Positions 2,641 through 58,500 of a stretch of DNA of 64,000 nucleotides are shown one piece after another. This stretch comes from Xestospongia bergquistia (taxonomy: Eukaryota; Porifera; Demospongiae; Haplosclerida; Petrosiidae), in contig OZ014413.1 in NCBI GenBank assembly GCA_963965975.1, positions 3,420,001-3,484,000 of the forward strand, read 5' to 3'. How positions within the stretch are numbered: the stretch's first letter is position 1; each line of letters begins with the position of its first letter. The position numbers were made by a program, and so were the translations under genes. Under the pieces are notes generated by a model. The model had not been told where the DNA came from. It ran no database searches and saw only the letters and a program-made list of their open reading frames with translations.

Positions 2641-5136
2641 ATCTAAAGTAATAAATGGTAAATAAAGTACTAAATTATAACACATCAACCTGTTTTCTTT
2701 AATTGTTGTTCATACTCATGGGGTTTTGTTAGGTGTTTTGTTACAATCAGTGCTCTATTCTACACCAACTACTTGTGATATAAAGATTCCTCCACCTGAT
2801 TCACTCACTAGCATGATTATTAAAAAATTATACATTCAAAGTTTTGTTTATATGCTTTTGTAGTTATAATTGGGAAGACTCATACAAAGCAATGCCTCCA
2901 CCATAAATGCCAGAATTCTTTAAAATATGCTATGACCATCAAACATTTTTTGGCTATTGAAACACATGCACTAAAGCAGTCATGTTATCATCACTAACTT
3001 TAATTTGGCCAAACAGAACATTAGCAATGTTGAATAACACCACAGCAGATATACACAGCAAAAAACACAAGGTTAAAACTACCCGCAATGGTTGTATCAA
3101 CTACAATACAAAGTGGTTATATTGACCTACATGTAGTTGAAGTGACACTCCTGGGTAACTTTAACTAAAATGGATTAATGTAACTTAGTTGGTTGAAGCT
3201 ACCATGTTGACTGACTGTTTCTATAACTAGTTTAACACCAAAATAACAATGTAATCTAGTTATTAAAACAAATTGGTAAAAGGGAGAAAAAGCAATATTA
3301 GTTTTTATATAACATAGTGTTTTAGATAAATAAAACATCTGTTAGTTTATGACCATGATAAACATTATAATCAAATAAATCAGATATTAATGACTGGTGT
3401 GAAGAAACAGTAATGACATAGGCATAATAATGCACTTAAAATACCATTTTGTCATTTCACCCAGAATCTCATCAAGTTGATGTAAACCCAATATTGAGTT
3501 ACCACAAAGCCAAAAACTGGTCTAACTTAATATGTGAAAAGTCAACTAAAAGCCAAAAGTAGTCTTTGTAGTTTATGTCTAATAACGGAAATTATGAGGA
3601 AATGGTAGATACTAATTCAACTTAACTAACTTAGTATCTACTTATAGCTTTAATTGAAGCCACAATTTGACTACTATAGCAAAGTTAGTGTAAAAGCAAT
3701 GTGGTTGTAGATAACAAACCAATTATGAAGATGGGATATATCTTAACAATTATTCCTGCACTGCATCTTTGTAATTTATTTTAAACTTCTCCATTATAAG
3801 TACCTGTACATATGAAACATTAACAATTATGTAAATTGATACAGACTGTACCTCTGGCCAGACTATTATTTGTGAAGTCTGGGAAAAACATTGGTTGCTC
3901 CTTTATATCATTCTCTATTCCCTTCAGATAGTGCTTGATCTCTAGCAACTATAACCATTGTTTAGATTAATGCATGCCCCCATTTATATTGCTACTATAT
4001 CATCCAGAGTGATTGATCATTTGTCATTGGACCTCTTTACCATAAGTTTTCTCTGTTTGGTGTAATCACTATGTCATACATTCAAGTACAGCTTGCTGCC
4101 TGTTAAGTATTAGAATTTTGTATACATGTTTTAAAATAAACTTCATGCTTTTTTGAGAGTGGACCTTATGAAGCTTCTTGTAAAGATGGAATTTCTAATA
4201 AAAAAGGAAAAATGGGGACACAGTTACCTTTCACTCATTGCAACTTACTTATCACTTTTTTCTCTTTCTAAGTAGGGGTACATGCATGGCTATGAAAAAC
4301 TGTTCTCCCCAATTTCTGTCATTTCTGTAGAGGTCACACAGTATACATTCAGCTTATTATAATATGTTGTTTCTAGATTTTGTTTTTATTTTACTAGGAT
4401 TGATAGCAACAGTTCATAACAATGACTTTTTAACATAATTGATAATATATCTACTGTATAAGAACAAATCTTATTATATGAGATTTATTGCTACAGGGAT
4501 CTGTTTACCCATAATAATCTAATGACTATGTTAAAATATTCATTTAATAAAATGTTAATATACTTATTAACATTTTAACTATTTGAATATAACACATAAA
4601 AGCTTTTGAATAGCAACATAACCATCTGTAGTGAATGCATGACATACTACAGCAGTATGGTAACTATGCAAACTCAGTATTATAATAGAATGTAGCCAGA
4701 AATATTAACCATGGAGTCTTCAAATGAGAGTAATGGATTCTTAGAGACAAATATTATTATTAATTGCATGGTACAGAGTTATGTTTTAATGTAAGCTTAA
4801 TTAGGTAATGAAGCTATTTAAAGGATTCTGTTTTAGAATGGTAGTCGATATGGTTGTTATAAATATAATAACTAATAAAATATGGTTCTTATAATAGTAA
4901 TAACTAATATAACATGGTTGTTATAATGGTAGCTGGTCTATACATGTTTGTTATAATGGTAATAAGTCTACATCATTGATAATGGTAGTTTATATAGTTA
5001 TAATGTAGTTAGTCATTGAGTCACCGTTGTTGTTATAATGACAATCTCAATGGTTATGACTGTAGTTGTAACAACATCACTTCAAGTCATGGAATTCATT
5101 CTGTTACTATGTCACAGTCAACTGATTATTGACCAT

Positions 5137-5137
<1 letters not shown>
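2641..5137. other. AT-rich spacer, no gene seen
   Basis: About 2.5 kb without a convincing open frame. It contains the second copy of the 90-bp direct repeat (3902-3991). From about 4840 to 5060 there is a degenerate series of short ATAATGGTAG / ATAACTAATA-like units. Confidence 0.5.
3902..3991. repeat. Direct repeat, copy 2 (partner at 1-90)
   Basis: Near-identical to bases 1-90 in the same orientation, 3.9 kb away. No open frame crosses it. Confidence 0.85.

Positions 5138-5170
<33 letters not shown>
5138..5170. repeat. (TG)n microsatellite
   Basis: Uninterrupted TG dinucleotides. Related impure GT/GA tracts follow near 5500-5550 and 6085-6105. Confidence 0.95.
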
Positions 5171-5507
5171 GTTAAGCCTGTTTTTAGAACTCCTGCTATT
5201 CTTATGTGATGCCCAAAGAGTTGAAACCCAAGAAGTTAATATTGAAACAACTAATGAATATCGTGCTATGGTAGGTTTGCTGTTGATTATCAAGGAGGAC
5301 TCTCTCCTAGATATGATGTAAAAATGTCTCTAGTCTAGAGCTTTGTTGTTACTATCTTTACTCTAGAGTATTGCATCATCTCTATTATTGTATTATTGCT
5401 GACTGTAATTGCTTAGTTTTTGTTATTTAAGTCGTGTTTTTGGTTGCTTCTTTATTATATTGACTTTTTAACTAATAAAGTCTTTGTAATCCTTATTGGA
5501 TAAAAGT

Positions 5508-5690
5508 GTTTGGTGGTGGTGCTGGTGTGTGTGTGTGGTGTGTGTGCATTAATATAATTATAATCAGATATTATAATAACAGGATCATCATACCTTAATC
5601 TCAGCATGCTATAACAGACTACGTATTCTTATTCTCCCTTGTCATAGTTCTTTTGAGCAAATGCTACCATCACTTATTGACCATTGTCTT
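5508..5690 (-). pseudogene. Diverged duplicate of the last-exon segment at 6085-6265
   Basis: This stretch parallels 6085-6265: a GT-rich tract, an AT spacer with ATAATA, a CAGCAT motif, then a similar ~50-base segment. On the reverse strand the segment reads VMVAFAQKNYDKGE then stop. The other copy reads VMVASAHRTSVKSE then stop at the same place. Matching stop positions suggest two copies of a real last exon. I found no upstream exons for this copy. Confidence 0.35.
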
Positions 5691-6149
5691 ACCAATTAAC
5701 GTTTTACTAATTTCATTATGCTAAGTAAGTCAATAATATGACAATAGATCATTGCTGAAAACAACAGTAGCTAATTGGATAGTATTGTTACTAAATATAG
5801 CACATAACAATGAGTTACAAAGCAATTACATATTCAATCTTCTCCTGATTTCATAAACTAAATTCTCTACTTAATAAACATCCATAAATAATGAGATATT
5901 ATAATAAACATTGACAAGGTAGATAACTTCAACTTACCTTTTCTTGAGTTTTAATATTTCTTAACTTGACTCATCCTTGTATTCCCTTTTATGCAATAAC
6001 CACCATTATAGGGGTAGTATTGTGTTTACAATATTGTATTTGATTAGGGAATTTTTGATTTATTTTGTATGTTATCTCAGTCTAGAGAGAGAGAGAGTGT
6101 GTGCGTGTCAATATTAAAAATAAATATTTAAATAATTATACTAATAATA

Positions 6150-6450
6150 ATATCTTAATCCCAGCATCCAATATACATTCTCATTCACTTTTGACACTAG
6201 TTCTATGAGCAGATGCTACCATCACTTCAGTATCAGTAGTTCTTACTTGTCCTATGACTCCAGCCTACACAATAGAAACAATATTAGTGATGGAATGTAG
6301 AAACATGTGATGGTGTGCATTCAAGCAAATAGATAATAACAGAATGTGGATTTATTTGTTACCAACTTCAATTTATCCCCTCTGGAATTAAAGCATCCAA
6401 GTCTTCTTGGCAGTCTCTGTCTTCTTCTTCTGTTAATAAATGTAATGATT
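6150..6450 (-). CDS. Possible last exons of a small unknown gene
   Basis: Reverse-strand reading gives an acidic stretch after a consensus acceptor (EEDRDCQEDLDALIPEG, about 6370-6430). About 100 bases on, GQVRTTDTEVMVASAHRTS leads to a stop near 6180. The second part has a paralogous copy at 5508-5690 with a conserved stop. I could not settle the splice sites or find a start, so the exon model is tentative and the family unknown. Confidence 0.3.
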
Positions 6451-7909
6451 TCATATCATCAGATTTATATGAAGCAATTTACAAGTTGCTCCCAATTCAA
6501 TCTATAATTTCATACATTATTAAATTATAAGTTATGTAATGTTAAAAGATTAGATAAGTTTTACCATAAATTAAGAAAGTTAAAGGTTTTGATTAGTTCC
6601 ATTCAATATGATAGTGCTCGTAATAAATTAAATTAAAATCATCATTTGCTATATATGTGTGATGGTGGTCATTGGGTGGGGATTAATTTTTAATTATTGG
6701 TCACAATCAATAGTCAAAACAAAAACAAAAATGATTACATATGACTGCCTGACATGCTTAGTGTGTCAAGTAGAATAAAAATATTCAAATCTATTAGTTT
6801 TTCCAATTAACAATAAACTTTAAAATGTATACAGATAAGAAAGAAACTTTATGATCAATATATATTGATGGTATTGATCCATCCATCTATCCCTATATAA
6901 GTCTGTTAATATATCTGTTTATCTCTTCTTCTGAATCCTCTATAATTATTAACTTAAGCTTAACTCTAATAATTTACAATGTTGACTGATTAGATCATTA
7001 GCGCCATGATCGATGCATGAACAAATCTATCATGTAGTTCTTTTCTCTTTCCATTATCTCTTAACAGATTTTTGCAAATAGTCAAATAATAAATTCGAAG
7101 TTTCGAACACACCTTAAATTCATCTATGATATATTCCGTTTTTGTAGTAAACATTACCATGTGGTAGATTAACAACCTCTGTAGTTGTTTTTGCCAGGTG
7201 TATAAATATTCGAGCACAATTGCAGGTAGTCAATTAGTTTGCAGCAACTTGTAAGAGAAAACAGCAACTCAAGTCTTTTCATAGCATATAAGAAAGTGAA
7301 GAAACATGTTCATTTTTTCTATCTGATATGGACTACTAAAGGTCAAGGTAAAGTACTTAGCTTTGTTTTCCTCTCTTAAAAATCCCAATTTTTTTTAGAT
7401 ATTCAATGCCCAAATTCACAAATTGCTCTAGTTTTGCTAGAGGCTATATGGTAAACCAATAAAGTAGAGTTGGATTTGTTGGTATAAAGAATAAGAACAA
7501 CATTGAAAGTTTTGTATTGAAAACATGAAAAGTTTTATACTATGACACAAGTCAGTAAGTATTGACTTATCAATACAAGGTCTGTAATTAAATTGCAAAT
7601 AAATGAATTGAAGAAATAGCTTTAATATCTCTGTTAAATTGATAGTGAAATACTTCTTACTGTATGTTAAGAATTATATAACTTGATAATTAGCCAATTA
7701 AATATAACAGTCGTCACTTTTAAAGTATAAAACGTTACACTTATGTCGTTGTTCTTCTTTACCAATCATGTTGAATGTTAGTACATGCTACATCATAATT
7801 ATGCCTTATATTTAAGAAGGCTTAAAAATTGAATATTTTAATAAAAAAACCTGCAACATAGAATAAAATAAAAATGGAAACTTGTATTTTGGAACATGTT
7901 ACTAATGAT
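6451..7909. other. Spacer downstream of the 7.9-14.6 kb gene
   Basis: AT-rich, and I recognise no gene. A 75-codon reverse-strand open frame (6990-7217) resembles nothing known to me and has no supporting splice or paralog evidence, so I do not call it. Confidence 0.4.
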
Positions 7910-10900
7910 TTACAAAAGATCATGTTCCATGTTCTCAGCCATTGACCTAAACACCTCTAACTTCTTTAGAACAATAATTAATTCTTCTAATATCTGCGGC
8001 TGTATATTGATTGAGGTCATTAAACCTTTCATTAGTAGGACACCCTTTTCCATATCAGTCTTTGCAGCATTATCTGTAGCACTATTATAACAGTCTAATG
8101 TAATAAGTCGAGCACTGAACAGTTCATTTGCTAGAGATAATCTGTTATTAGAATCAAAGACTAGACGTGATAACTCAGCATAATGTGTCCTAAACACATC
8201 TTGTGGTAAGGGGTGTCGACCTGTGGATTGAAAAGGCTATGTTAAATATATTCTTCAATAACAATATGATAAACATATAGTGCACTTTATAATAAGTCTA
8301 TATATACGAATACTATTACCATAATTATTTACAAGAATATAAAGTACATACAAACAGAGAAGTCTATTTACTACTTAATTTATCTAATACAATACAGCCA
8401 ATATTCACAAGAATAAGTCAAACACTGTATTCTTTTAAATATGCTGAATAGCTTTAAACTAAAATAAGGAGACAAAATTATATCATTTTAATCTTTACCT
8501 AGCTTGGTATGTGAAGTTGTCATAGTTACAATGTCACCTTCAGATTCTTCATGAATTTCATGAGCAGAGGAAGCTAAGTAAGTAAATATAAAAGTAATTA
8601 AATAATGTAACAACTAAATATACCTTTAACTTCAGGTGTAAACCAAGGTAGCTGACGTTTCCTGTCAACAGGAGAGTAATTTATAAAACAAGTAAGTTTT
8701 GTCTTGTCTTCATTCAAGTGACAAAAGTGTTCTGGTTGGTTACAAAATGGACAATGAAATCTTTCTTCAGGCTCTTCAAGGCTGTGCATATAATGAAATT
8801 TGTTAACAACTGCCTTAATTCCCTCTTTGACAGTTTCATAAATATGATAACACTTATTTGGTGGACCAGTGTATAATAGTTCTAGCCAGTATATACCATC
8901 AACTAATAGAACTGCTCCAGCAAAACTACAACATTCCAAACAAATAGCATTACGAAATTGGAGGTCGTCAGATCGTGGAGTTGAGAGATAAAATTTTGGT
9001 GAGCAGTTGCGAGAAAGAAGACTAACAATTAGTGCAGGAAAAAGACCTTGTGGAAGAGGCTTTTCATTCCATGTCAAAATAAGAGGATCAACTTTGTCTT
9101 TAAAAGAAGCTCTCAAAGATTCTAAGTCAGTGGTAGTGGGCAGAACACAAGGAAGGAAGTATTCTCCTGTCTGAGGTAGAGGAGATAAAATAAACAAATA
9201 TTCCATCAACTTCAAAAAATCATCAGCTGAAAACTCTTTTGAAAATCCTTGTGAAAGGGATTCTGTTAATAGACTCCGTGTAAAGATTCCTTGAATTTTG
9301 AGCTTCTCATGAGTACTATGATGAACACGAATACCTAGTGTTCTCTTTAAGTCATCAACGGCATCAGTGAAAGAGATACTAATCAAAAGAGACAGTTTGT
9401 CAAGAAGTGGTTTTGGATTAACAAAGACAACATTAGGAAGGACTTCAGGAAAATAAAGATAAATAGTCAAATCATGATAGTACATTAAGGCAGCATTTAC
9501 ATCGTCCTCATCCATTTCAAGAGTACTACCAATATTGATACATTCAGATTTGCTAACAATAGAGCTATTAGAAGTCATTTGGTGCTGTTCTAAATCTAAC
9601 TGAAATAAGAACCATCGAACAGGAATCTCTGCCTTCGTGTAAGACTGGCATATTTCATGACGAATTTCCTTAGCTATTATTTGCCTGTTCATATCTTTAG
9701 CAATTGTGTTAACAGGAAATATCACTTCCTTTCCCCGAATATGATGTAAAATTAATGCATCTCCATACTGCTTTAATGTTGAAAAGAGTTTATTGTTTTT
9801 TTCAGCTAAAGACTCACCAGAATCATTTATCTTGTCATAAAATGTTCCTAAAACTAGACAGACTGGCTCCAGATCTTTGACTGAACTAGGAATACCAGGT
9901 AAATTAGGTGGATTAACAGATGTTAGTGAACGAAAAGATGCTTCTATAAGTTGCAGGTTTGTAATTTGTCGTTTCACTGGATTACCAATTACTTCTCCTT
10001 TAATACTGAAGTAAAAATTTGATAAGTCTTCAAGTTTTTCATTTAGTTTGTGCGTGAGAATATTCACTGAATTATAACGCAATAAACCTGGAGCCATATC
10101 TAGAAAAGCAGCTTGACCTCCAGAATCTACTGCATATATCCAGTGTGACTCAAACAGTGGAAATGATTCCTTCACATCAGGTAACCTCTCTAAGATTTCT
10201 TTGGTAGCATTAGAAACTGGAGATGATAACAACTGTTGAGGTTGAGAGACAGTTTCCAAAGATACTTCATTTTCTTGTTGTTCAAGATCTTGTGCTTCAT
10301 CAGAAGAAGAATGATCACTACCATCATCTTTATCACTTTGTACTGTTGATGATGAACGAGGTTTGACTCCTTTCTTGATGGCTTCAGCAAGCATCTCCTT
10401 TAAAGAGTCAATATCTACCTTAATAAAAGACTGGGTAGCTTCACCAACTAAAAGAGGTGTAGTTGTTACCATTCTTACTTCAGGTACTGCCACTACTGGA
10501 GTGCTATGATGATAGTATGGTGGATCTTCATCAAGTAACAGTTTTATTATGCATGACTTTCCACTTCCTGGAGGACCAGAGACAAAAAGTTTGGTCCATT
10601 TAATTGTGACATAACCCTCTTTACGAGCTTTATCAAGTAACTCAGAATAATCTAGTATAAAAAGGAGATGAATGTGATTGTTATCTACTGTGAAGACATT
10701 TTGGATGGCACTATTGATTTGTAAATATTTTTAATGGCTACGTTTGCCAAGAAGTAAGAAATAGACTTTGACATAAAGAATATTTAGTGAAGCTGTTCTT
10801 CATGAAAAGCCATAACACTGTCTACAAAATGTTTTTATATACTGCTATTAATATTCAAAAATGTGAATTAAAAATATTATATAAGATAAAACTAGACAGT

Positions 10901-17941: not shown

Positions 17942-18373
17942 CTAATTATCCACAGCTGAGTCAAAAACTTGAAGATGCAGGTGTGTAATGTTTCGTCCCT
18001 CTGGTTTGTTTATTTGACATCCATCAATGCTGTAACAAAACTTACATTTGTCTTTAAATTTTTCATTTAGCTTATGTGTGAGTATGTTCACTGAAGTATA
18101 ATGTAGCAATGCAGGAGCAATGTCTAGATAAGCAGCTTGACCTCCAGAGTGTACTGCATATATCCATTGTGACTTAATTAGCTGAGGAGACTCCTCTATA
18201 CTGTGTAACTTATGTAGGATCTCATTTTTAACTGTACAGTATTCTGAGGGGATAGAGGGTCTGAAGATAGTTTGAACAGATGGCAATATTCCTTCAAAAA
18301 ATGCAGATGAATTAAAGAAATTATCTTTACATCTTTGTACTAAATAGTGCACAATGTCTTCAGCAACCATCAT
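17942..18373 (-). pseudogene. Roc-domain relic, switch-region part
   Basis: A 143-codon open frame matches the 7.9-14.6 kb protein around its switch motif: SQWIYAVHSGGQAAYLDIAP against HWIYAVDSGGQAAFLDMAP. The usual Asp of DSGGQ is His here. The frame ends before the G4 region. The P-loop half lies 1 kb away at 19320-19545, separated by a transposon remnant. It is a truncated copy and unlikely to function. Confidence 0.75.
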
Positions 18374-18549
18374 AGGCGTATTTAGACCCGGGCCAGCATG
18401 GGCTTTGCCTGAGTAAACTTGACAAGAGCAAAATTAATTATATTTTTTCAAAAATAAATTCATTGCTTTTGAATTTTAACCAAAATAAAATTCATAATCT
18501 AATTAACCACTAACACATGCCAATCCACATGTATGACTTCACAGTTAGC

Positions 18550-30717: not shown

Positions 30718-30749
30718 TGAGCATGCGCAGATTGCTTGAGCCCCACCCT
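30718..30749 (+). promoter_or_regulatory. Proximal promoter element shared with the 7.9-14.6 kb gene
   Basis: TGAGCATGCGCA, then ATTG, TGAGCC and CACCCT in the same order and spacing as 14599-14630 (reverse strand), with about four mismatches in 32. It lies 17-48 bases before the ATG. The genes it precedes differ outside the Roc-COR and Death parts, so the match suggests shared regulation or a shared ancestral 5' end. Confidence 0.6.
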
Positions 30750-30765
30750 TTCTTTCTCTGCAACC

Positions 30766-33700
30766 ATGACAGCAAAAGAAGTGCAAGGTGAGGTGCTGTT
30801 TCATTATTTCAATGTTATATTCATCACTTTTTAGGTGGAGAAATAGAGCTTTATCTATGTCCTGGCTATAAGAATTATTTTAATCAAATAAATACAAAAT
30901 TTGGAGAGCTTACTCATACTATTATACCTTATATTGCTGGGGACATCCCATCACTTAAAGAAGTCAAAACATCTCTTGGAACACGTTTCCACGAGTCAAA
31001 ACCGTACCTGTCAACAGCTGAATTATTTGATGATGTTATTGAGTTAATAAAAAAGAAGTGTACGATAACAAACATTGCCTGGTTTGAGACCAATGTTGAT
31101 CATTGTAACATTGAAAAGGTCAGACCTCATATCTCAGCTTACAAATCAGCAGTTGATGAGATCTGTGTAAAATTTAAACGCAATGTATTGGAAAATGAGA
31201 ATATAATGACTGCCTCGACTTCTTTCAAATATGAGTCAATCACATTTGTTCTTGGATGGCAGCAAACAGATGACCTCACTCCTGATGACATATATGGTTT
31301 GTTATGGAAAGCATTTGGAGATATGGCTAAGAAAATAGTGCCTAAATATGGACTGAAACGTAAGCTAATAAAAATGGCACAATATTAATTAACTTTAATA
31401 ATTTATCTACATGTATATATTATCAATGCTGTTTTTAAATGCATGATGCATTGAGTAGTTTTTCATTTTGCCTGATATACAAAGAAACAAGGCTAGATAA
31501 TCTTATGTTCAGTTACTTATGTCCATTTTTCAAGATATTTGATCGAAAGTAATCATATTGATGTTATTACCACATATATTATAGTTAAAGGTTTTGGCTG
31601 GTTTTAAATGTATCTATTTTCCTTGATTGCATCCTTGTGCTTTTGGTATGTGTGAACTAGATGTTGACCTTCTAATATGTAAATGACGTGTACATGTATT
31701 TTTAAAAATGCTCAGTGGGATTCGGGTTGAATTTAAAAAAGTATAAGAGCTAGTTCGAGAGTCAAGATCTGGTTTTACAGTTAGAGAAATTATGAATTTG
31801 TCTCTTCCAGTGGTTTATATAAAAGTGTGGAAAACAGACTTGTGAACACTAAGTAAATATGTCCTTTATATTATGTTTAACTCTGTGTGTACTATATATA
31901 CTTACTCTGTTTTACAACAGGTGACATTGGGAATGTTTATTGGAGACATGATTATGCTAGTGTTTCAATCATGTCACCAAGCACTGAACAATGCAAAAAT
32001 ATTGTACGTAGATTAAAACAAGAACAAAAGGAGAAAAAATGGCGCATTGAACTCCGTTCATCAACTACTGATAATGCCCTAATACTCATAAGCAATCTTG
32101 ATCAGTTTGTAGTGGAGGAACTGTCTATAGAGGACACTTTGTTGGACAGTACGTGCATGTCAATGTTATCAGAGAAATTTATTAAAATGAAGAAACTATT
32201 GTTTAAGTCTTCCTCTCTCCCTACTGGTAGTATCCAACAAATTAGTGATGTTCTAGCACATACTGACACTTCACTCGAGGGATTCTTCCTGTGGAATGTT
32301 CCTATCACAGATGATGATGTAAATTGTTTGTCTGAAGTTTTAAGTAATGCCAAAACATTGAAAACACTAGAAATCTCCAACTGTGACATCACTGATGAAG
32401 GTGTCCAATATATCTATGAAGGGGTTGCTAAAAATCAAACACTTACTTTTTTATCCATCAGCAATAATCTTCAGATCACTTCACGTAGTACCGATGCAAT
32501 AGTTGAACTAATAAAAATGACTACATCATTGAAAGAACTATACCTCCGCAATACTTCACTGAAATATAATGATATTATGAGAATTTGTGAAGAGCTAATT
32601 AAAAACACTACAATACAACAGCTCGTATTATCCAAACAACATGAGAACACTTGCAAACTTTTTCCTAGTCTTAAAGACAGACTCTATTTTGTAATAGATA
32701 AGCAAGGTATGTTTTAATTCAATTAAGAATATAATTGCCTAAAAATTGTAATAGACTATTGACTATTAAAGTGGATAAATAAATTAATCTACACACATTG
32801 ACTGCTAATGTACATCACAACCAGAAAATTAAATATGCTCCTAATGCAAGTTTAACTTTATTGTCACATGTAACATTTTATAATTATGTTATTGTTACAT
32901 TGTTTTGCTTTTATAGACTATCCCATAATGGAGAACATTGATTGTTATACCACTGTAACAGTGCCTGAAGTAGCCGTGACTACTCTTATTGAAGGCCAAT
33001 TTGAATTTCCCCAAAAAACTAAACTAGTCAGTGCAGTGCATATTATCACTGTTTCCAAACCACTTCTTGAGCCTTATAAATTAGAAATACAACACTGTGT
33101 AAAATTAGTGACACAGGCTCAGGTTAATAGCCTACACTTTGTTAGAGCTCCCTACTCTCTTACAATATTACCTTACCAGTTCACATTGATTGAAGGAGGA
33201 CAGTTTAATCCAGGAAGTAGACATGGAATTATTGACATCATATGTCAATCAACTTGTCTTGTAGCTATTGTAGCTGACCAGAAGCAAAAAACAAAAGATA
33301 CTGATGAGGAAAATTACATAAAAAATCAAGGTACAGTGAATCAAGGTGTATTAAATGAATTACTACAATGCAATATTTACTCATCATATAGATACCAGTA
33401 GAGGAATCACTCCACTTTTATCTTTTGTATATACTGGAGTAATTAATTATGAGGAAAAAGATGATAAATGGATAGCTACTTTATCTGTTATGAAAGATCT
33501 TGAAAGTCTTTTAAAGGTAACAGTAGTTCATTAACAAACATTTTAGTATATTATAATTGTTAATGCTTTATATTGTATTTTTTAGTTTGTAAAAAGGAGT
33601 TCTAATACTGAAGATTCCATTTATTTTGATTTTGTTGATGAAAATGGATTCATTGAACTTGTTTTTCAACAAGAACAATTTCCAGGATGGAGCATTAAAC

Positions 33701-36700
33701 CAATGATTGAACCATGCAAGGTTTGATATGATGGCTATTTACTTATATTTTATTAACCTGTTTATATGTAGTTATGGCAAACTGATATTGACAAATTTGG
33801 ATCATCTCCTAACACTACAGTGTCATCATGTCAGTTTCTTATACATGCTGATGATAGTCCAGATACCATTGGGTATTTAGTGTATCCTGTTGAACTGAAG
33901 GGTATAACACCTCCAATGAATATAACAATTCATCGAAAGAAATCAGGTACAACCTTATATCATACATAGACTTTTCCTCATCATAACAAATACAAATATA
34001 GCTTAATATTGTTAACAAATATTTATTTTAATCTTGGTCAAATCCATGAATTAATTAATTCAAAAATGATATTTTGCTATGTGATACAGTTTGTAACTTA
34101 TTGTGTTTGTTACATTGTTAATTTCTACTTTGTTATGTGTATATGGTATAATGCTATGACAATGTCAAGGTTGTAATTAATTGGATAATTTGCTGGTAAT
34201 CTTCTATAAATTATTGTGCATGATTGTTTGGAAATTATTATAATAATTGTCTTCTCTTGCAGGTGGTCTAAAACATCCAGTGCAGATAATAGGTTAGTAT
34301 TTTACATTCCTATGATTTTCATTATGTATTAGTAGAGCAGTGTTTTAATGTTGAAATGATCATACAGTATGAGGCAAAGCAAAGTGCTGTATGACCATTA
34401 AAACCATACATTAACTGATGTATAACAGTGCTTGGGTTGTCAGTGCAGTACAGAAAAGTTGTGTAACTGTTTCTGTTTGTCATTAGTACTGCAAAATGGT
34501 GTAACAATACAAATAGTGACCACATCTATGGTGATAAATAAAGCACAATCACCTCAATATTGTATATTTATAGTATGATGCATGGGCATATCAAAAGGAG
34601 TGACAATGCTGTATGAAAACATATACTGCACTGTATGTTGTGGTCATTTTTGTGACGGAACTGTTGCTTTTCAGCTCTTACAGCTATTACAAGTAGATAA
34701 AACAATAATCATGCTTTTTTGTAGCCTTGTTGAGTGCCACGGATCTGCCCAAGTATCACTATAAATCATTTAAAGCGTTGTTCTGTTCTCATGCTATTCA
34801 GAATATTTTGTATTCTGGGTATGTGTTCATACAACATCTTTTGTGAAAAATATTCCATTTAACATTCAGAAACATGCTTTAACTAATATAGTGTGCATGT
34901 AGCATTGTCAACACCTTTTGATACATCATGCATTGTATTAAAACTTTATTGTGCTCACACCACTAAGTTCCTATGTGAAGTACAGTTCAATACTTTAAGT
35001 CAGCTTGCATGTAGATCTGTTCTTGACCTTTCTCATCTACTATCACAACAAAGTTGAATAGGTTTATCAAACAGTAATGATAATCAGAAATAAAGTTTCC
35101 TTCAAGTCCCAGTTTAAAACTGAGATTTGTCAGGTTCTGACTCTAGATCTAAAATTCTCTTCTTTTAAGGGTTAAAGGTCTATAAGAACCTGATTCATTG
35201 ATCTATTTTCTTGACTATTAGGTTGGTTGGTGCCTTTGATCTGTCCAGGCAAATCAACCAATCAATTAAAGCATCTTGTATTGTTACCATATGAGAAACA
35301 TTGCACAGGGTGTGGTTTTGATGTTCATGCAGCACTTAGCTTTGTTATGTGCTGTATGAATATCTCATTTCTACCTACTCTTTGTTATTTCTTGTCAATC
35401 ATTTTTAAATATACTTTAACTCTAACATCTTGTTAAGATTGTTTTGTAAACGTACTTTGCTATTAGCCTGTTACTACGTGGACAGTTTAAACTTGGTTGA
35501 TTAGCTTTGTCTCTTTTCAGACCACCAATATCTTCAAGAAGCTATCAAAAAGGGTGGAAAGGTTAAAGCCAGTGTTTCAAAAGTCCTTGTACAAGGTCCA
35601 GCTCGAGTTGGCAAGACATCAGTCAAATGTCTAATTCTCGCACAACACTACAATAAGCAAGATAGTACTGGTGTTGCTGAGCGTCCACAAGTAGCAGTTG
35701 GTGATTTTTCAATGCAAACATATGGTCAAAATGAAGAAAAGAAGTGGGAACTTATCAGTGATACAAACATAGTTGAAATGTTTGCAAATGATATCAAGAG
35801 TCTAATGGAAAAAGATAATGCAAATAGTAGAACACAATCGAATGAACATAACAATAGCAAAAAAGGAGACAGTGGTGTCCATGACAATCACATGGAAGTT
35901 CAGCAACAGGATGTTGAACAGGATGTTAGTGAAACACATCTAGATGTAGCTGATCACCCATTAAGCCATGGAAGTAGTTCAGACAACAATAATTTAGCAG
36001 GACATAATGAAAATGGAGGTGATGATGATATGTCTTTATGTCCTGAGATATCACTAGAATACAATCCTAGTCCACAATTAACAGAGACGAGACGTGATGA
36101 TTTAGCAAAACAGCTGTCAAGCCTCCTTAACAAAGCTTCTAGTAGGCCTGACAAATTAACACTGTATAAAGATTGGCTCTATTTTATTGATTCTGGAGGT
36201 CAAATCCAATTTCAGCAGATCTTACAAGCTTTTATACCATGTGTATCAGTTCTTATGTTAGTTATCAATTTAGCTCAAGACCTCTCTAGTGAATCCTCTG
36301 CTGAACTGCATTGTGAAGATGGGAAGAAATACTCGGTAAGTGAGTATTCGTTACAAGTTGAAACTCTTTTAAGACGACTTACAAGTATGATCACATTTAG
36401 GAATTATAAACAACAAAATGATATGACCAGTGAAGGCAGTCGTCGTCTTTCCTCAGCAATAAAACCTCCAGATAGATTAAAAGTAATTACTATTGCTACT
36501 CATGAAGATAAATGTGAGTTTGGACAAGTTAATGAAGTAATTGCACATAAAGTGGATCAACTTAAACAGATTTTTCAATCTGTGTCTGACAATTTGCTAT
36601 ACCAAAATCCTACTACAGGAGAACTTCTCTTTAAAGTTGATGGTCGTAAAGCATCTGATACTGAAGAAACATTTGATGATGAACTGAAGAGCACAATTAG

Positions 36701-39588
36701 TGATATTCGTAATGAATTAAGTAAACAAGCTTTTAAAGTTGATGTTCCATTAACATGGTATGCTTATGAAATTCTTCTACGTGATAGCACTTCTATAAGT
36801 TGTGGTGTGCTTACAGTGGAAGAGTGCATGACTTTAGGTATTGATTTAGGTTTGGAAGATGATGAAATTCAGCCTGTACTAAGATTTTTCTCTCTTCTAA
36901 ACTCTATTCTCTACTATCCTAAAGAAGTCACTAACCTTGTCTTTATTGATCCACATAGCCTCATTGAAGTAGTGAATGAACTAATGGTATTTGTCTGTAA
37001 AGTACGTAATGGAGTAGATATAGGTCCTGGCACACTAGCAGGACCAGACATGGCTTATTTTGGTATAATTTCCAGTGATGTTTTTTCACATGAAGAACAC
37101 TTTAAGAAGTTTCATGAAATATCCAATGCAGTTATTAATTTAAAATCTGAGGAAACTATTGATTTTAAATTACATTTGTTTAGTATCTTCACTCATCTTC
37201 TACTAGCAATTAAATTGCCTGACAGCAAACCACCTAATGAGAAATATTTCATGCCAGCCTTATTACCATTAACTGATCCTTTAAATGCAATTCCATTTGA
37301 ATCCTCTAATAACACTCCGTTACTGTTTTACTTTAGAAATGGTGTACCAGTTGGGCTTTTTTGTGCTATGGTTGTCAATCTCCTCTCAACTAAACTCAAT
37401 AATAAATTCTTGTGGTCACTAGATAAAAGCACTTCCAAGATATATTCCAATTATATTTTATTGCGTTCAAAATGTTTGCTTGGGGAAGTTACTTTGGTAG
37501 AGTCTTCAGATTGGTTTGGGATCTGTTGTGAATGTCCTGCAGATCAGCTTAAAGTCAAAGAAGCTATTGAAAATGCCATTGCAAAAACCAAAAAGAAACG
37601 GAAAATTGAAGTTGAATGGGAAATTGCTTTCTTTTGTCCTTGTGGCCAACAGCCACGTCACCATGCTTTTTTGAAACATCACTATTCTATGCTATTTTGT
37701 GAGCTTATCAAATCACCATATGGTGTTTGCATTCAAGGAACAAAAGACTTTCCACATTTTTCATGGATTTCTTTAAAAAGCAATCAAGGTTTGGTTTACT
37801 GTTATGCATGCTTATTATTATTTTCTTTTAACTACAGATAAAAGACCAGAACTCTGTTGTCTTATTGAACTGTTGGCACCAATCAGTTCAAATTGGGGCT
37901 TGATTGGTGGTAAGCTTGGAGTGGATATTCAAATCATTGATGACTTAAACAAATCAGATGAAATGAAGCTAGATGAAGTCATACAGAAGTGGATAGAGAC
38001 AAAATCTACGCCATCTCTTTGGTTTAATATTATTGAGATTGTAAAAGGGCAGTGCCCTGATATAGCTAGTACCATAAAGAAATACTTAGATCATTTTTTT
38101 AATGAACAGGAACAAGAGAAAATACAAGGTATGTAATATTTGTAAGGCTATTTGTTACATTAGTTTTGTAGTAGTATTCACTTTTCACAAGTAATGCCTT
38201 GTTTAATATGATGATTTTGTATGTGTAAAAATAGTAACTCTATATGTAGATATGTATACTCAATTGATGAGAAATAACTACAGTTAACAGTATTAAAAAA
38301 TTTAAGATCTAGCCAATTTTCCAGTCTATTTACTTTCATTTGACCCAACTGTATTAATGTCTCATTGATGTGGTACCATCAGTGTAAGGTTTTGTTGAAG
38401 TAAAGAGTTTAGAGGTAGAGGTTAATTACAATTTGTCAAACTTTAATACTTAATAATTCACAGATACAAGACCTGAGAAATGTGTTTTACTGACATTACT
38501 ACCGCCAATATATCATTTGTGGCATGAGCTTGGAGATTTACTTGGAGTTGATTCTGGGACCATTCAGAGTTTATCCACTTCTCAATGTAGTAATCTTGTA
38601 AAGATGTCCGATATATTGCAAAGCTGGTTGGATAATGAACCAACTCCTGTTACATGGAACAATATCATTGACATGATAGAGGGACCCCTACAGAATAAAA
38701 GATTTGCTGATGAAATCCGTGAAAAAGTTAAATCAAGTAAGTATTTGTAATACTGACCTAACAAGTAGTAATAATTAATTGCTCAAAAATTACTGTCTGT
38801 GCAAATTTTAATTAATTACAGTTTCGATGTAGGAATGTTTTATATGAATTTTGTTTTCTCAAGTTATAATAGTTTACTTACCAGTTCTGTTGTGGGTTCA
38901 TGCTTATTTGCTTGACAAATAACATATTATGTGATGTATATGTTCGTCTTTATAGTTTGACTGTGATTTGAATTATGAGGTATTTTCTGTTTTAACAGTA
39001 AGCTTAATAAATAATTAAACAGACTTTTTAAAAAGTCCAACCCTTGAGAAATTATGAGTAAAACTAAAAGCTAACTAACATTGCTGTATCATACTTTACT
39101 TGTTAAGTTCTTAAGTTAACAGTTCTTGATGTTGTATTAGATACAATAAAATCATCAAAGATGAACTTCAAAATACCAGTTGAGCTACAGAGATCTGTAC
39201 ATGGTATGGTATTGAAGTAATTTCATTGTATTAGATTCAAATTTTAACAGGAAAAAGAAAAAGTGAGGGCAAAGATTCTGATGAAGATACATTATATCAG
39301 AAACAACAAGCTTATGATCACAGTACGTCTTCTGACGAGGAGTCAAGGTCATCAAGTAGATGTGGAAAGAAACCAGCAGGAGTGAGATATTACACAAAGA
39401 AAAGTAAACAAAAAAGAAGATACAAAAAATTTAAAGGTATTATGATAGCTTCTATCAACTTGTATATTCATATTGTTACAGGACACAAGAGACAAAGATC
39501 AGGAGACAGCAATTCTGATGGACATAATTCATTCAGAAAACGCAAAGCTTACTCTAAAGGATCTGATTCATCACTTGATAGTAACTAA
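30766..39588 (+). CDS. LRR / ZU5 / UPA-like / Roc-COR / double-Death protein (1,799 aa, 14 exons)
   Basis: Exons: 30766-30787, 30835-31359, 31921-32706, 32917-33330, 33392-33516, 33586-33720, 33772-33946, 34263-34292, 35521-37788, 37838-38128, 38464-38736, 39141-39203, 39251-39436, 39482-39588. All junctions are GT-AG and the frame is open throughout. Residues 1-182: unnamed domain. 183-444: ribonuclease-inhibitor-type LRRs (LKTLEISNCDITDEGVQYI). 445-582: ZU5 (GQFEFPQKTKLVSAV). 583-727: UPA-like (VYPVELKGITPP). 738-1493: Roc-COR with Walker A GPARVGKTS at 763-771, DSGGQ at 961-965, THED near 1064, COR motif YFMPALLP and a CPCG cluster near 1444. Death domains at 1494-1590 and 1591-1681, then a basic Ser-rich tail with NLS-like KRKR clusters. 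PIDD1 has LRR-ZU5-UPA-Death; here a Roc-COR GTPase sits between. A cell-death or immune scaffold is inferred. Confidence 0.9.
34293..35520 (+). other. Long intron 8 of the 1,799-aa gene
   Basis: At 1,228 bp this is the largest intron of the gene, whose others are mostly 50-600 bp. I find no coding exon or terminal repeats in it; small open frames on both strands look like chance. Confidence 0.5.
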
Positions 39589-55553: not shown

Positions 55554-58500
55554 TTACAAAGAGTTATGTTCCATGTTCTCAGCTATAAATCTAAATACCT
55601 CTAATTTCTTTAGAATATTAATCAACAATATTAATAAGTGGGGCTGTGTATTGATAGAGGTCATCAAACCTCTCATTAGTAGGACACCTTTTCCATTTCA
55701 GTCTTTGCAGCATTATCTGTAGCACTATTATAACAGGCAAATGTAATGAGTCGAGCACTGAACAGTTCATTTGCTAGAGGTAATCTGTTATTAGAATCAG
55801 ATACAAGATGTGATAACTCAGCATAATGTGTCCTAAACACCTCTTCTGGAGAGGAATGACCTGTCAATTGAATTACTACACTCACAACACACACTAGCTA
55901 TTAATAATAAATGATATAATAATTATATATATCACATACTTCTATCTTGTGAAGTCTCATTAACTGATCCTGTATTAAATGTTCCTTTTCAAATAACTTG
56001 GATATAAACCAAAATATAATGGATAACTTACCATTTCTACTATTACCAAGAGATCGTATAATATATATCTTCCTGTTAGCAGGTTTGGTTCCTCTTATTG
56101 GTATACCATACTTTATTTCAACCTCTGTATCAGGTCCATGTCTAGCAGACACAGTGATAAGCAAGGAATGACAAGATGGAGGATCTTCAGACCCAAACAT
56201 GTCCACATCATTTTTATATAAGACCTGCAAATTCCACATCCACACATGAAGATCTTTAGTATCTTACTTACCACTGGCTTTTGGTGAGGCTGGATAGTCC
56301 ATCCATTGAAAGGATGCTCTTGTTCTTCATTAAGAATTAATTCAATGCAGCCATCATCTTCAAATGTGAAGTATAAGCAAACATCTTTGTCAACATCAGA
56401 TGGAAGAACTGTTTCTATATACTATACATACATTATATTATAATATATAACTCTATTAGTGTTTTACTAACCTCTAGCAAAGCATTGAGACGTTTAGCAA
56501 CCATGAAGTGCATTAACCATTTGGTACCATGACATTTAACCTCATATACTGCCTGAGCTACATACTTGTTATCAGGAAATGGTTTGTTAACAAGAGACAC
56601 ATCTACAGAGAAATATATAAGTCAGTATTGTTAAAACAGTTAGTCTACCTTTTATCTCAGACAGTTCAAGAGGTAGGGTTTTCGAGTGAAGACAATCTTC
56701 TGAACTAGATCTACCTGTAGATATGTCTACAGAGTTAATCTTATCATCAGTTAGTGAGGAAGGTGGCAATGACTTTATTCTGTCTACAACTTCAATACCA
56801 TAACTCGTTATAAGTAAATTGTCTAACATAAGAAATAATGAAATAAACTATTTTGTATTTAGAATACCTTTTGATGGATCATCTTCGTTCCCACACTCTT
56901 GAATAGATGGTTCAAGAGCATCAAAAAATTCATCATCAGAAGACGATTCATTCCTTATTGGATATCTCAGCAACCTCTTGATATAGTTCTTGACAACACA
57001 CCATAAAGAAAACTGAGAAAGAGAAATGCTGCCATATTGATCACCAGGGTGAAAGTGCCCTCCATCTTTGAGCTGGAACTGATACGGAAGTTCAGTATTA
57101 ACAGAAGCTGTAGCAAAACACAGATAACTGGTGTGATCTTGAGTGACTATATCTGCACAATGTTGTATCTCCAATGTGACTGGTTTGAGAAGTGGTTTAG
57201 AAACAGATATATTATACACAGCACTGATAAGTTCACTTTCTTCAGGTAACTGAAACTGTCCACCGACTAGTGCTGCTACTGATACTTCACAGGTATCTGT
57301 TGGAGATAAAGTGCCTTGAGGAACAATGATTCTTAATCCATATTTTTTCCATTTGAGGATCTGAAGAGAGTCTCCCTGAATTAGGAACAATTTATCACTT
57401 CCAAAACACACACCTTTAAGAATATCTAAAAAATAGACATTTAAAGATAATCCATTATATTGTTGTTAATATACCGTTTGATGGGATGAGATAATTAAAT
57501 TGAACAGAAACATTCTGTTTATTTATTGATAGCTCCATTGACTCTGTCTGTACACTAACAGTTTCCTTTGCAACTTCTGTCAAATAAATCAAGATACAAA
57601 TACATGGATATAAATTAATGTAACATATATGTTATTGTGACTGAATGTTTAAAAATTAGTAGAACCAAAAATTAAAAAATATTACATGTGTTAATGTATA
57701 TACCTTGTAATTTTTCAGTGATGTCAATAATTCAAGCAGCTAGGTAATATTATTTTTGTTATTTGTTGACTTTTAAATACAAACTTAATAAAACTACACA
57801 CTACCTATAATTTGACTTTATGATATCTTATAATTTCTACAGACTTATGTAACCTGGCATCTTTGGTACTCAGTTTCATAGAAACCAATACCATGGTGTG
57901 TGTTAATGATGTCAATAAAAACATGTTGCTGTGTTAGTGAAATATATAGTTTTCTTGCCTGTATTTGCTTTCTTTATCAAGTTAAAAGTAGTGAACACAC
58001 TAATATAGGCTTTAACATTACCTAGCATCAGCAAATCATTATTATATATGATACGTACTACTAACAGCTACTTTTCTGGCTCACCTTCTTTCTCTCTGTT
58101 TAACTTCTTAATCTCTCTTTCTCTATAGAACATAATCATACATGGTATGTACAACTAACAACTAGTACTATGGCAACATTAGTAAAGTACTACATATGAT
58201 AGGTATAGGTTACCTGATATGTTAGTGTAATTGCAATAGTCACATTGGATAGACTCATCACTGAAGTCAGTAGAGACTTGTATACTGTTATCACTAAAGT
58301 CAGTAGAGACCATGTCTTGTAAACCTAATGATAAACATATTTATGTTCAAATCATATATATATACAGTTATTGTGTTTTATTTAGTGTAACTATTTGCTG
58401 TTACTAAGGGGATAGTACTTTCTACACATCTACCAATCCATCCATAAATAAATTCATCTATTTATCCATCTGTCCACCTTTAATTCATCCATCAATCCAT

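Follow-up and report, generated by a model that had tools for sequence, protein, structure and literature searches.

A candidate mosaic Roco-type gene with a ZU5 region and paired Death domains in the sponge Xestospongia bergquistia

A 64,000-nucleotide stretch of the genome of the sponge Xestospongia bergquistia (contig OZ014413.1; C3:3420001-3484000 in our numbering; hereafter the window) contains a locus that a preliminary description read as a single gene for a PIDD-like protein with an inserted Roc-COR GTPase and a second Death domain. Is this one gene and, if so, is it a PIDD relative that acquired a GTPase, or something else? The answer that we favor, with a probability of about two in three, is an intracellular Roco-type scaffold, recombined via phase-1 introns from gene types resident in the same genome, with an uncleaved ZU5-UPA region and clustering of Death domains controlled by guanosine triphosphate (GTP). 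The predicted domain order is helical/TRADD-N-like module, leucine-rich repeats (LRRs) of ribonuclease-inhibitor type, shortened ZU5, presumed UPA, Roc-COR, Death, Death, and a charged tail (Table 1).

Gene model and relatives

Re-splicing of the 14 exons gave 1,799 codons plus a stop codon, with 0 internal stops, and GT-AG borders at 13 of 13 introns. The consistent single-gene model of the preliminary description was thereby re-derived. Introns 1-13 measure 47, 561, 210, 61, 69, 51, 316, 1228, 49, 335, 404, 47, and 45 bases, and their phases are, in order, 1,1,1,1,0,0,1,1,1,1,1,1,1. Phase 1 thus accounts for 11 of 13; the two exceptions, both of phase 0, fall within the ZU5-UPA block. Exons 2, 3, 9, 10, and 11 form symmetrical 1-1 cassettes. 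The chance of at least 11 phase-1 introns among 13 is 7e-5 at a background of 30% and 0.0013 at 40%, both shares being assumed.

The genome (146 Mb, 21 contigs) was scanned as a whole; counts from the scans are lower bounds (candidates scored: COR-A, 150 of 171; exon 4, 150 of 263; exon 2, 150 of 379; exon 11, 150 of 834; one further scan, 59 of 435). Different parts of the gene have different partners. DNA blocks 30729-31416 and 31762-32703 of the window match locus L058 (76-81%), and 32899-34344 matches L057 on contig C6 (76%) with no L058 match. The block 35479-38136 matches L057 (77%) and, over most of its length, L058 as well (81-85%); 38432-38749 matches L069 (84%), and L057 additionally matches 235 bases of exon 2 (68%). 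The homology partner switches inside introns 3, 8, and 10, and the final block ends inside intron 11. The protein encoded by exon 11 is 28-34% identical to the second Death domains of L057 and L058, compared with 78% for the L069 Death. L058 contains LRRs, Roc-COR, and Death domains, and no ZU5. L069, about 12-15 kb past the window's end, contains a Death domain (Pfam expectation value [E] 6.4e-8), ZU5, an exon-7-like piece, an exon-11-like Death, and an HFC motif; exon 9 found no counterpart in the 5 kb covered.

Given the partner switches within introns and the prevalence of phase 1 (11 of 13), we conclude from these alignments that the gene is an exon-shuffled mosaic drawn from three gene types resident in the genome. 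Its sources would have been a TRADD-N/LRR/Roc-COR/Death gene (like L058), a ZU5-UPA/Roc-COR/Death gene (like L057), and a Death/ZU5-UPA/Death gene (like L069).

Table 1. Predicted features of the locus, in window coordinates
Feature	Position	Strand	Basis or remark
Whole gene	30766..39588	+	14 exons; ATG at 30766, stop codon end at 39588
Exon 2, first part, helical N-terminal region	30835..31226	+	helices in poor structure model; Death-like fold is a guess
TRADD-N-like domain, interrupted by intron 2 (31360-31920)	31227..32063	+	probable
LRRs, ribonuclease-inhibitor type, exon 3	32121..32706	+	resemble ribonuclease inhibitor and NLRP repeats
Exon 4, ZU5 without first strand and without F-[S/C] motif	32917..33330	+	homology
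Exons 5-7, presumed UPA	33392..33946	+	conserved 3' of ZU5 in other copies; no profile support
Exon 8, microexon of 30 bases	34263..34292	+	kept in relative L057
Roc GTPase domain	35521..36731	+	motifs and AlphaFold fold match
Roc P-loop	about 35595-35618	+	
Disordered insert in Roc	about 35811-36098	+	
Roc DSGGQ	36189-36203	+	
Roc THxD	36498-36509	+	
COR domain, second part of exon 9	36732..37788	+	border approximate
Exon 10, Death domain 1	37838..38128	+	sub-threshold Pfam and joint profile
Exon 11, Death domain 2	38464..38736	+	78% identical to L069 Death
Exons 12-14, charged tail	39141..39588	+	no Pfam match

The continuity of the 3' part is best seen in L057, where counterparts of exons 4, 5, 6, 7, 9, and 10 are collinear (63-82% identity) and the 30-base exon 8 is present with matching splice sites; exons 6, 7, and 8 measure 135, 175, and 30 bases in both genes. 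The preliminary description had considered a break at the 1.2-kb intron 8. Such a break is unlikely and found no support, because L057 keeps exon 8 (end at 4343) just 183 bases before exon 9 (start at 4527). Compared with L057, exons 4-8 show a synonymous divergence (dS) of 0.45 and a ratio of nonsynonymous to synonymous divergence (dN/dS) of 0.36; the values for exon 9 are 0.39 and 0.45. Overall, exons 2-10 are stop-free with dN/dS of 0.36-0.68 against L057 or L058, the highest value being that of the LRR exon, and exon 11 gives 0.45 against L069.

The weakest joint is intron 3 (210 bases, GTATGT donor), where the partner switch could also mark two misjoined neighbors, a TRADD-N-LRR gene (exons 1-3) and a gene running from ZU5 to Death (exons 4-14). 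Consistent with this, L057 holds exons 4-10 and an exon-2 relative, and the 9 kb covered there yielded no LRR exon, nor did the 1.5 kb upstream of ZU5 in its twin L018; L058 holds exons 2-3 without a ZU5. Yet intron 3 is short, exon 3 is stop-free up to its phase-1 donor, and the LRR exon of L058 likewise reads into GTATGT. Furthermore, 10 of 35 N-terminal modules have a downstream ZU5 (within 12 kb, no Roc-COR), gene borders being unchecked. We regard a misjoined pair as quite unlikely and continue with a single mosaic gene.

Domain assignments

The AlphaFold model of exon 9 matched LRRK1/2 and Roco proteins structurally, and the motifs GxxxxGK, DxGGQ, and TxxD do not vary across the 14 aligned sequences, of which this gene is one; COR lies directly 3' of Roc. 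Profiles were less informative. Pfam Roc gave weak matches in 9 of the 14 sequences (best E 0.0017) and none in this copy; indeed, the Pfam models of Roc, COR, ZU5, and UPA each miss this copy, and the whole-genome COR-A scan did not list the gene. We uphold the Roc-COR identity despite that miss because the structure model of exon 9 matches the Roco fold. By model and motifs, exon 9 is a predicted Roc-COR GTPase with intact nucleotide motifs, placed between the ZU5 region and the Death domains as originally described.

Each Death domain on its own fell under the Pfam cut-off (exon 10, E 0.025; exon 11, E 0.0021), and the second Death of L058 had no Pfam Death match. When a joint profile of seven sequences was used, the ten best PDB matches were all FADD Death domains, with modest scores (best E 0.0058). 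Exons 10 and 11 are hence, on profile similarity, two FADD-like Death domains, in agreement with the preliminary description. The tail (residues 1681-1799) had no Pfam match.

The LRRs of exon 3 resemble those of ribonuclease inhibitor and NLRP proteins. Residues 1-230, upstream of them, had gone undescribed and hold a helical and TRADD-N-like module. The structure model of exon 2 was poor (predicted local distance difference test score, pLDDT, 47) and unfit as a search query. At least 150 relatives of exon 2 were present in the genome, and 11 of the 12 taken carry the entire module in a single frame. The spliced module of the gene family aligned with these 11 across 212 columns (hhalign E 3.8e-73), which supports the exon 2-3 joint. 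NCOA6_TRADD-N (PF13820) was the sole Pfam family matching more than one of the 11 (3 of 11, best E 0.14), and its match spans the expected beta-alpha-beta-beta part in the member shown; a chance-looking family scored better in one relative (E 0.0052). PF13820 did not match this gene's own copy, and PDB searches with the module gave no match. The hallmark of the NCOA6 clade of TRADD-N is a beta-alpha-beta-beta-alpha-beta order with a small residue and Ser at the beta2-beta3 turn (PMC8195603; this and the other papers cited by PMC number are represented here by excerpts). That order, and A-S at the turn, can be read by eye in the module. The module is probably TRADD-N.

Pfam ZU5 (PF00791) did not match exon 4. 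By homology to relatives, exon 4 is nevertheless assigned as ZU5: across 91 residues it shares 51% identity with a ZU5 exon elsewhere in the window (56848-57465, minus strand) that passes the Pfam cut-off, and 7 of 9 members of a ZU5 alignment match PF00791. A first-strand stretch present in other ZU5 copies is missing here and in both C6 relatives. Exon 4 matches only itself inside the locus, and exons 4-7 sum to 283 residues, pointing to a single shortened ZU5. Exons 5-7 are presumed to be UPA, being identified only as the exons found 3' of ZU5 in other copies; UPA had no match in Pfam or PDB searches of this gene. PDB searches returned nothing with a ZU5-UPA profile, chance matches with a single ZU5 sequence, and ZO-1 (E 0.072) with a ZU5 profile.

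PIDD cleaves itself at HF/S, and CARD8 and NLRP1 at SF/S (PMC3210808). The corresponding region reads IICQSTCLV in this gene and TFESSCLV in both C6 relatives, and an HF/S-type motif is absent. F-[S/C] is present in 29 of the 39 ZU5 sequences examined, and HF[S/C] in 9. F-[S/C] occurs in 0 of 3 for the gene and its two C6 relatives vs 29 of 36 others (Fisher p 0.013, the three being one clade counted as independent). Three ZU5 copies on C3 with Roc-COR on the opposite side read SRC, without F-[S/C], and the C2 copy L072, likewise with Roc-COR on the opposite side, keeps HFC. Altogether, 6 of 7 ZU5s with Roc-COR within 3 kb lack F-[S/C] (this gene, two C6, three C3; the exception is L072), and these six represent about two lineages, not six events. 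Both L021 and L027, with Roc-COR 4.1-4.2 kb away, keep the motif; it is also absent in L023, L029, L033, and L037, which have no listed Roc-COR within 6 kb. A C15 ZU5 4.1 kb before a COR-A place was not counted as an additional case, since an intervening frame separates the two and the Roc-COR there shares 22% identity with exon 9.

Other ZU5 arrangements were noted. The window exon at 56848-57465 has a cleavage-like QFS motif. An extra ZU5-type frame with a DFS motif (L018 3-599) precedes the shortened ZU5 of the C6 twin by about 1.1 kb, and is possibly part of a tandem ZU5-UPA pair or a neighboring gene. L071 (C3:410500-416700) and L072 (C2:5205800-5211800) show the reversed order, Roc-COR then ZU5, each with a frame after ZU5 that matches CARD weakly (E 0.03 and 0.2); an exon-7-like piece accompanies the ZU5 of L072.

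Genome-wide distribution and known systems

COR-A was found at no fewer than 146 places, and at 129 of these the frame stays open for at least 450 codons. Merging them all with the 58 exon-9-type places gives about 199 Roc-COR places as a lower bound, 136 of which lie within 30 kb of another. A ZU5 lies within 3 kb upstream at 3 of the 58 exon-9-type and 0 of the 146 COR-A places, and within 3 kb downstream at 0 of 58 and 11 of 146. LRRs were found in one of the three exon-9-type places with upstream ZU5, namely this gene. We also examined 35 of the 150 listed N-terminal modules for 12 kb downstream, before the next of the 35, gene borders being unchecked: ZU5 then Roc-COR followed in 2 (this gene and one on C6), ZU5 only in 10, Roc-COR only in 3, and neither in 20. 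Six-frame genome scans with PF20694, PF13820, and PF17217 were empty; they show little, because introns split the TRADD-N-like and presumed UPA parts here and no control genome gave a match either.

Such rarity raises the question of a weakly constrained chimera that has no separate function. We saw the full layout once, its ZU5 is shortened with the cleavage motif lost, and the LRR exon has the least constrained dN/dS (0.68). Opposed to this are 1,799 stop-free codons, 13 intact splice-site pairs, invariant GTPase motifs, an identical ZU5 shortening in both C6 relatives, and a dN/dS of 0.36 for ZU5-UPA. We consider a roleless chimera very unlikely.

Domain by domain, everything in the gene is already known, as are Roco proteins with Death domains in early animals; new are the joint layout, the directly visible assembly from three resident gene types, and the number of Roc-COR places. 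The resemblance to PIDD is less striking than the scale of the family and the shuffling that can be seen in it. An animal protein with LRR, ZU5, UPA, Roc, COR, and two Death domains was not found in searches of open-access papers, sponge protein databases lying outside the search.

Among human Roco proteins, DAPK1 consists of kinase, ankyrin repeats, Roc-COR, and Death, and MFHAS1/MASL1 and LRRK1/2 carry LRRs. DAPK1 shares the order Roc, COR, Death, but our gene has no kinase or ankyrin Pfam match and adds LRRs, ZU5, a TRADD-N-like module, and a second Death. MFHAS1/MASL1 and LRRK1/2 share the Roc-COR fold and LRRs upstream of it; here, in contrast, a ZU5 region stands between LRRs and Roc, a Death pair is terminal, and kinase or WD40 matches are absent. 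GTP binding controls complex formation of MASL1 (PMC3995007).

Coarsely, PIDD1 (LRR-ZU5-UPA-Death; PMC3210808) has the same order of LRRs, ZU5, and Death as our gene. Here, however, UPA found no support in profiles, the ZU5 is short, the cleavage motif is missing, Roc-COR precedes Death, and there are two Deaths; the PIDD-like label is not supported. A true PIDD1 relative with autoproteolysis and inserted Roc-COR, acting as a PIDDosome, would fit that order, and the nearby L069 offers Death/ZU5/UPA-like/Death with HFC and no exon-9 match in the stretch covered. It would not fit the single shortened ZU5 without F-[S/C], the ribonuclease-inhibitor-type LRRs, the TRADD-N-like N terminus, or the fact that the closest relatives differ between exons 1-3 and exons 4-8. 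L058 joins LRRs to Roc-COR and Deaths and has no ZU5, which makes a shared core a better view of Roc-COR than an insertion into a PIDD. We rate this reading of the gene as a true PIDD1 relative as very unlikely. The Death domain of PIDD1 engages RAIDD and caspase-2; a PIDDosome role of our gene would be possible by analogy, but the cleavage-site motif is missing.

Further parallels come from early-branching animals and brown algae. In the sponge Amphimedon, 357 NCOA6-clade TRADD-N proteins are reported; their C termini vary, and in most of them TRADD-N follows 1-3 Death-like domains (PMC8195603). They resemble our gene in the N-terminal helical and TRADD-N-like module, the huge lineage-specific expansion, and C termini that include LRRs; the C termini named in the excerpt are ankyrin, SH3-LRR, kinase, MATH, caspase, and others, not Roc-COR with ZU5, and UPA-Zu5 fusions are named there only for the DEDD2 clade (PMC8195603). 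Expanded and diverse Roco genes occur in Trichoplax (at least 17, with CARD, Death, and LRR; PMC4104024) and in brown algae (9-47, with shuffled LRR exons, proposed as immune receptors; PMC11378527); as far as those excerpts go, X. bergquistia differs in its about 199 places and in the shuffling of whole-domain exons, ZU5 and Death included. Novel Roc-COR combinations are also seen in actiniarians, where NG1 is LRR-GTPase-COR-TIR and NG3 is kinase-Death-TIR with Roc/COR (PMC5094078), with TIR and kinase there instead of ZU5 and paired Deaths here. In NLRP1 and CARD8, UPA reduces the threshold for CARD filaments (PMC7794386); a CARD follows there, whereas here the probably uncleaved ZU5-UPA precedes a GTPase.

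Proposed mechanism

In the scaffold that we favor, a ligand would engage the LRRs or the N-terminal module, the nucleotide (GTP) and dimer state of Roc-COR would shift, and the paired Death domains would then cluster and recruit adaptors or caspases. ZU5-UPA would serve as an uncleaved spacer or clamp and not as an autoproteolytic release switch. Several points weigh against this proposal. The intact single gene is predicted from genomic DNA; ZU5, UPA, and TRADD-N are assigned through homology of relatives or weak scores, not strong matches of their own; ligand, partners, and GTP dependence are predictions by analogy; an immune or cell-death role is suggested by family type and expansion; and the full layout with LRRs, seen once in the genome, could be a rare chimera.

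A broader idea is that Roc-COR beside ZU5-UPA goes with loss of ZU5 self-cleavage, a reversible GTP switch replacing irreversible proteolytic release. Its odds are lowered by L021 and L027, which have Roc-COR 4.1-4.2 kb away and still carry the motif, and we hold it only as a tentative suggestion, rather unlikely as it stands. The same doubtful standing applies to a GTPase-gated family of animal death-domain receptors, repeatedly rebuilt by phase-1 exon shuffling. If expressed, the gene would offer, in an early-branching animal, a test system for Roco GTPases as NLR-like switches of death-domain assemblies and a means of asking whether ZU5 self-cleavage can give way to a GTP switch.

Further Roc-COR and other frames were noted. 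L058 has two consecutive Roc-COR exons (2709-7625), with a frame break near 4060 in the first. On its minus strand the window carries a second Roc-COR exon at 8598-10730 (COR-A E 1.1e-7, 710 codons, 22% identity with exon 9), and a 163-codon frame at 17942-18433, with no Pfam match, resembles by eye part of the Roc of that exon and is perhaps a decayed copy. On the plus strand, 857-1681 is a 274-codon open frame with no Pfam match at E 0.01, and the open frame 22593-23672 matches POT/PTR2 transporters slightly under the cut-off (E 2.3e-5).

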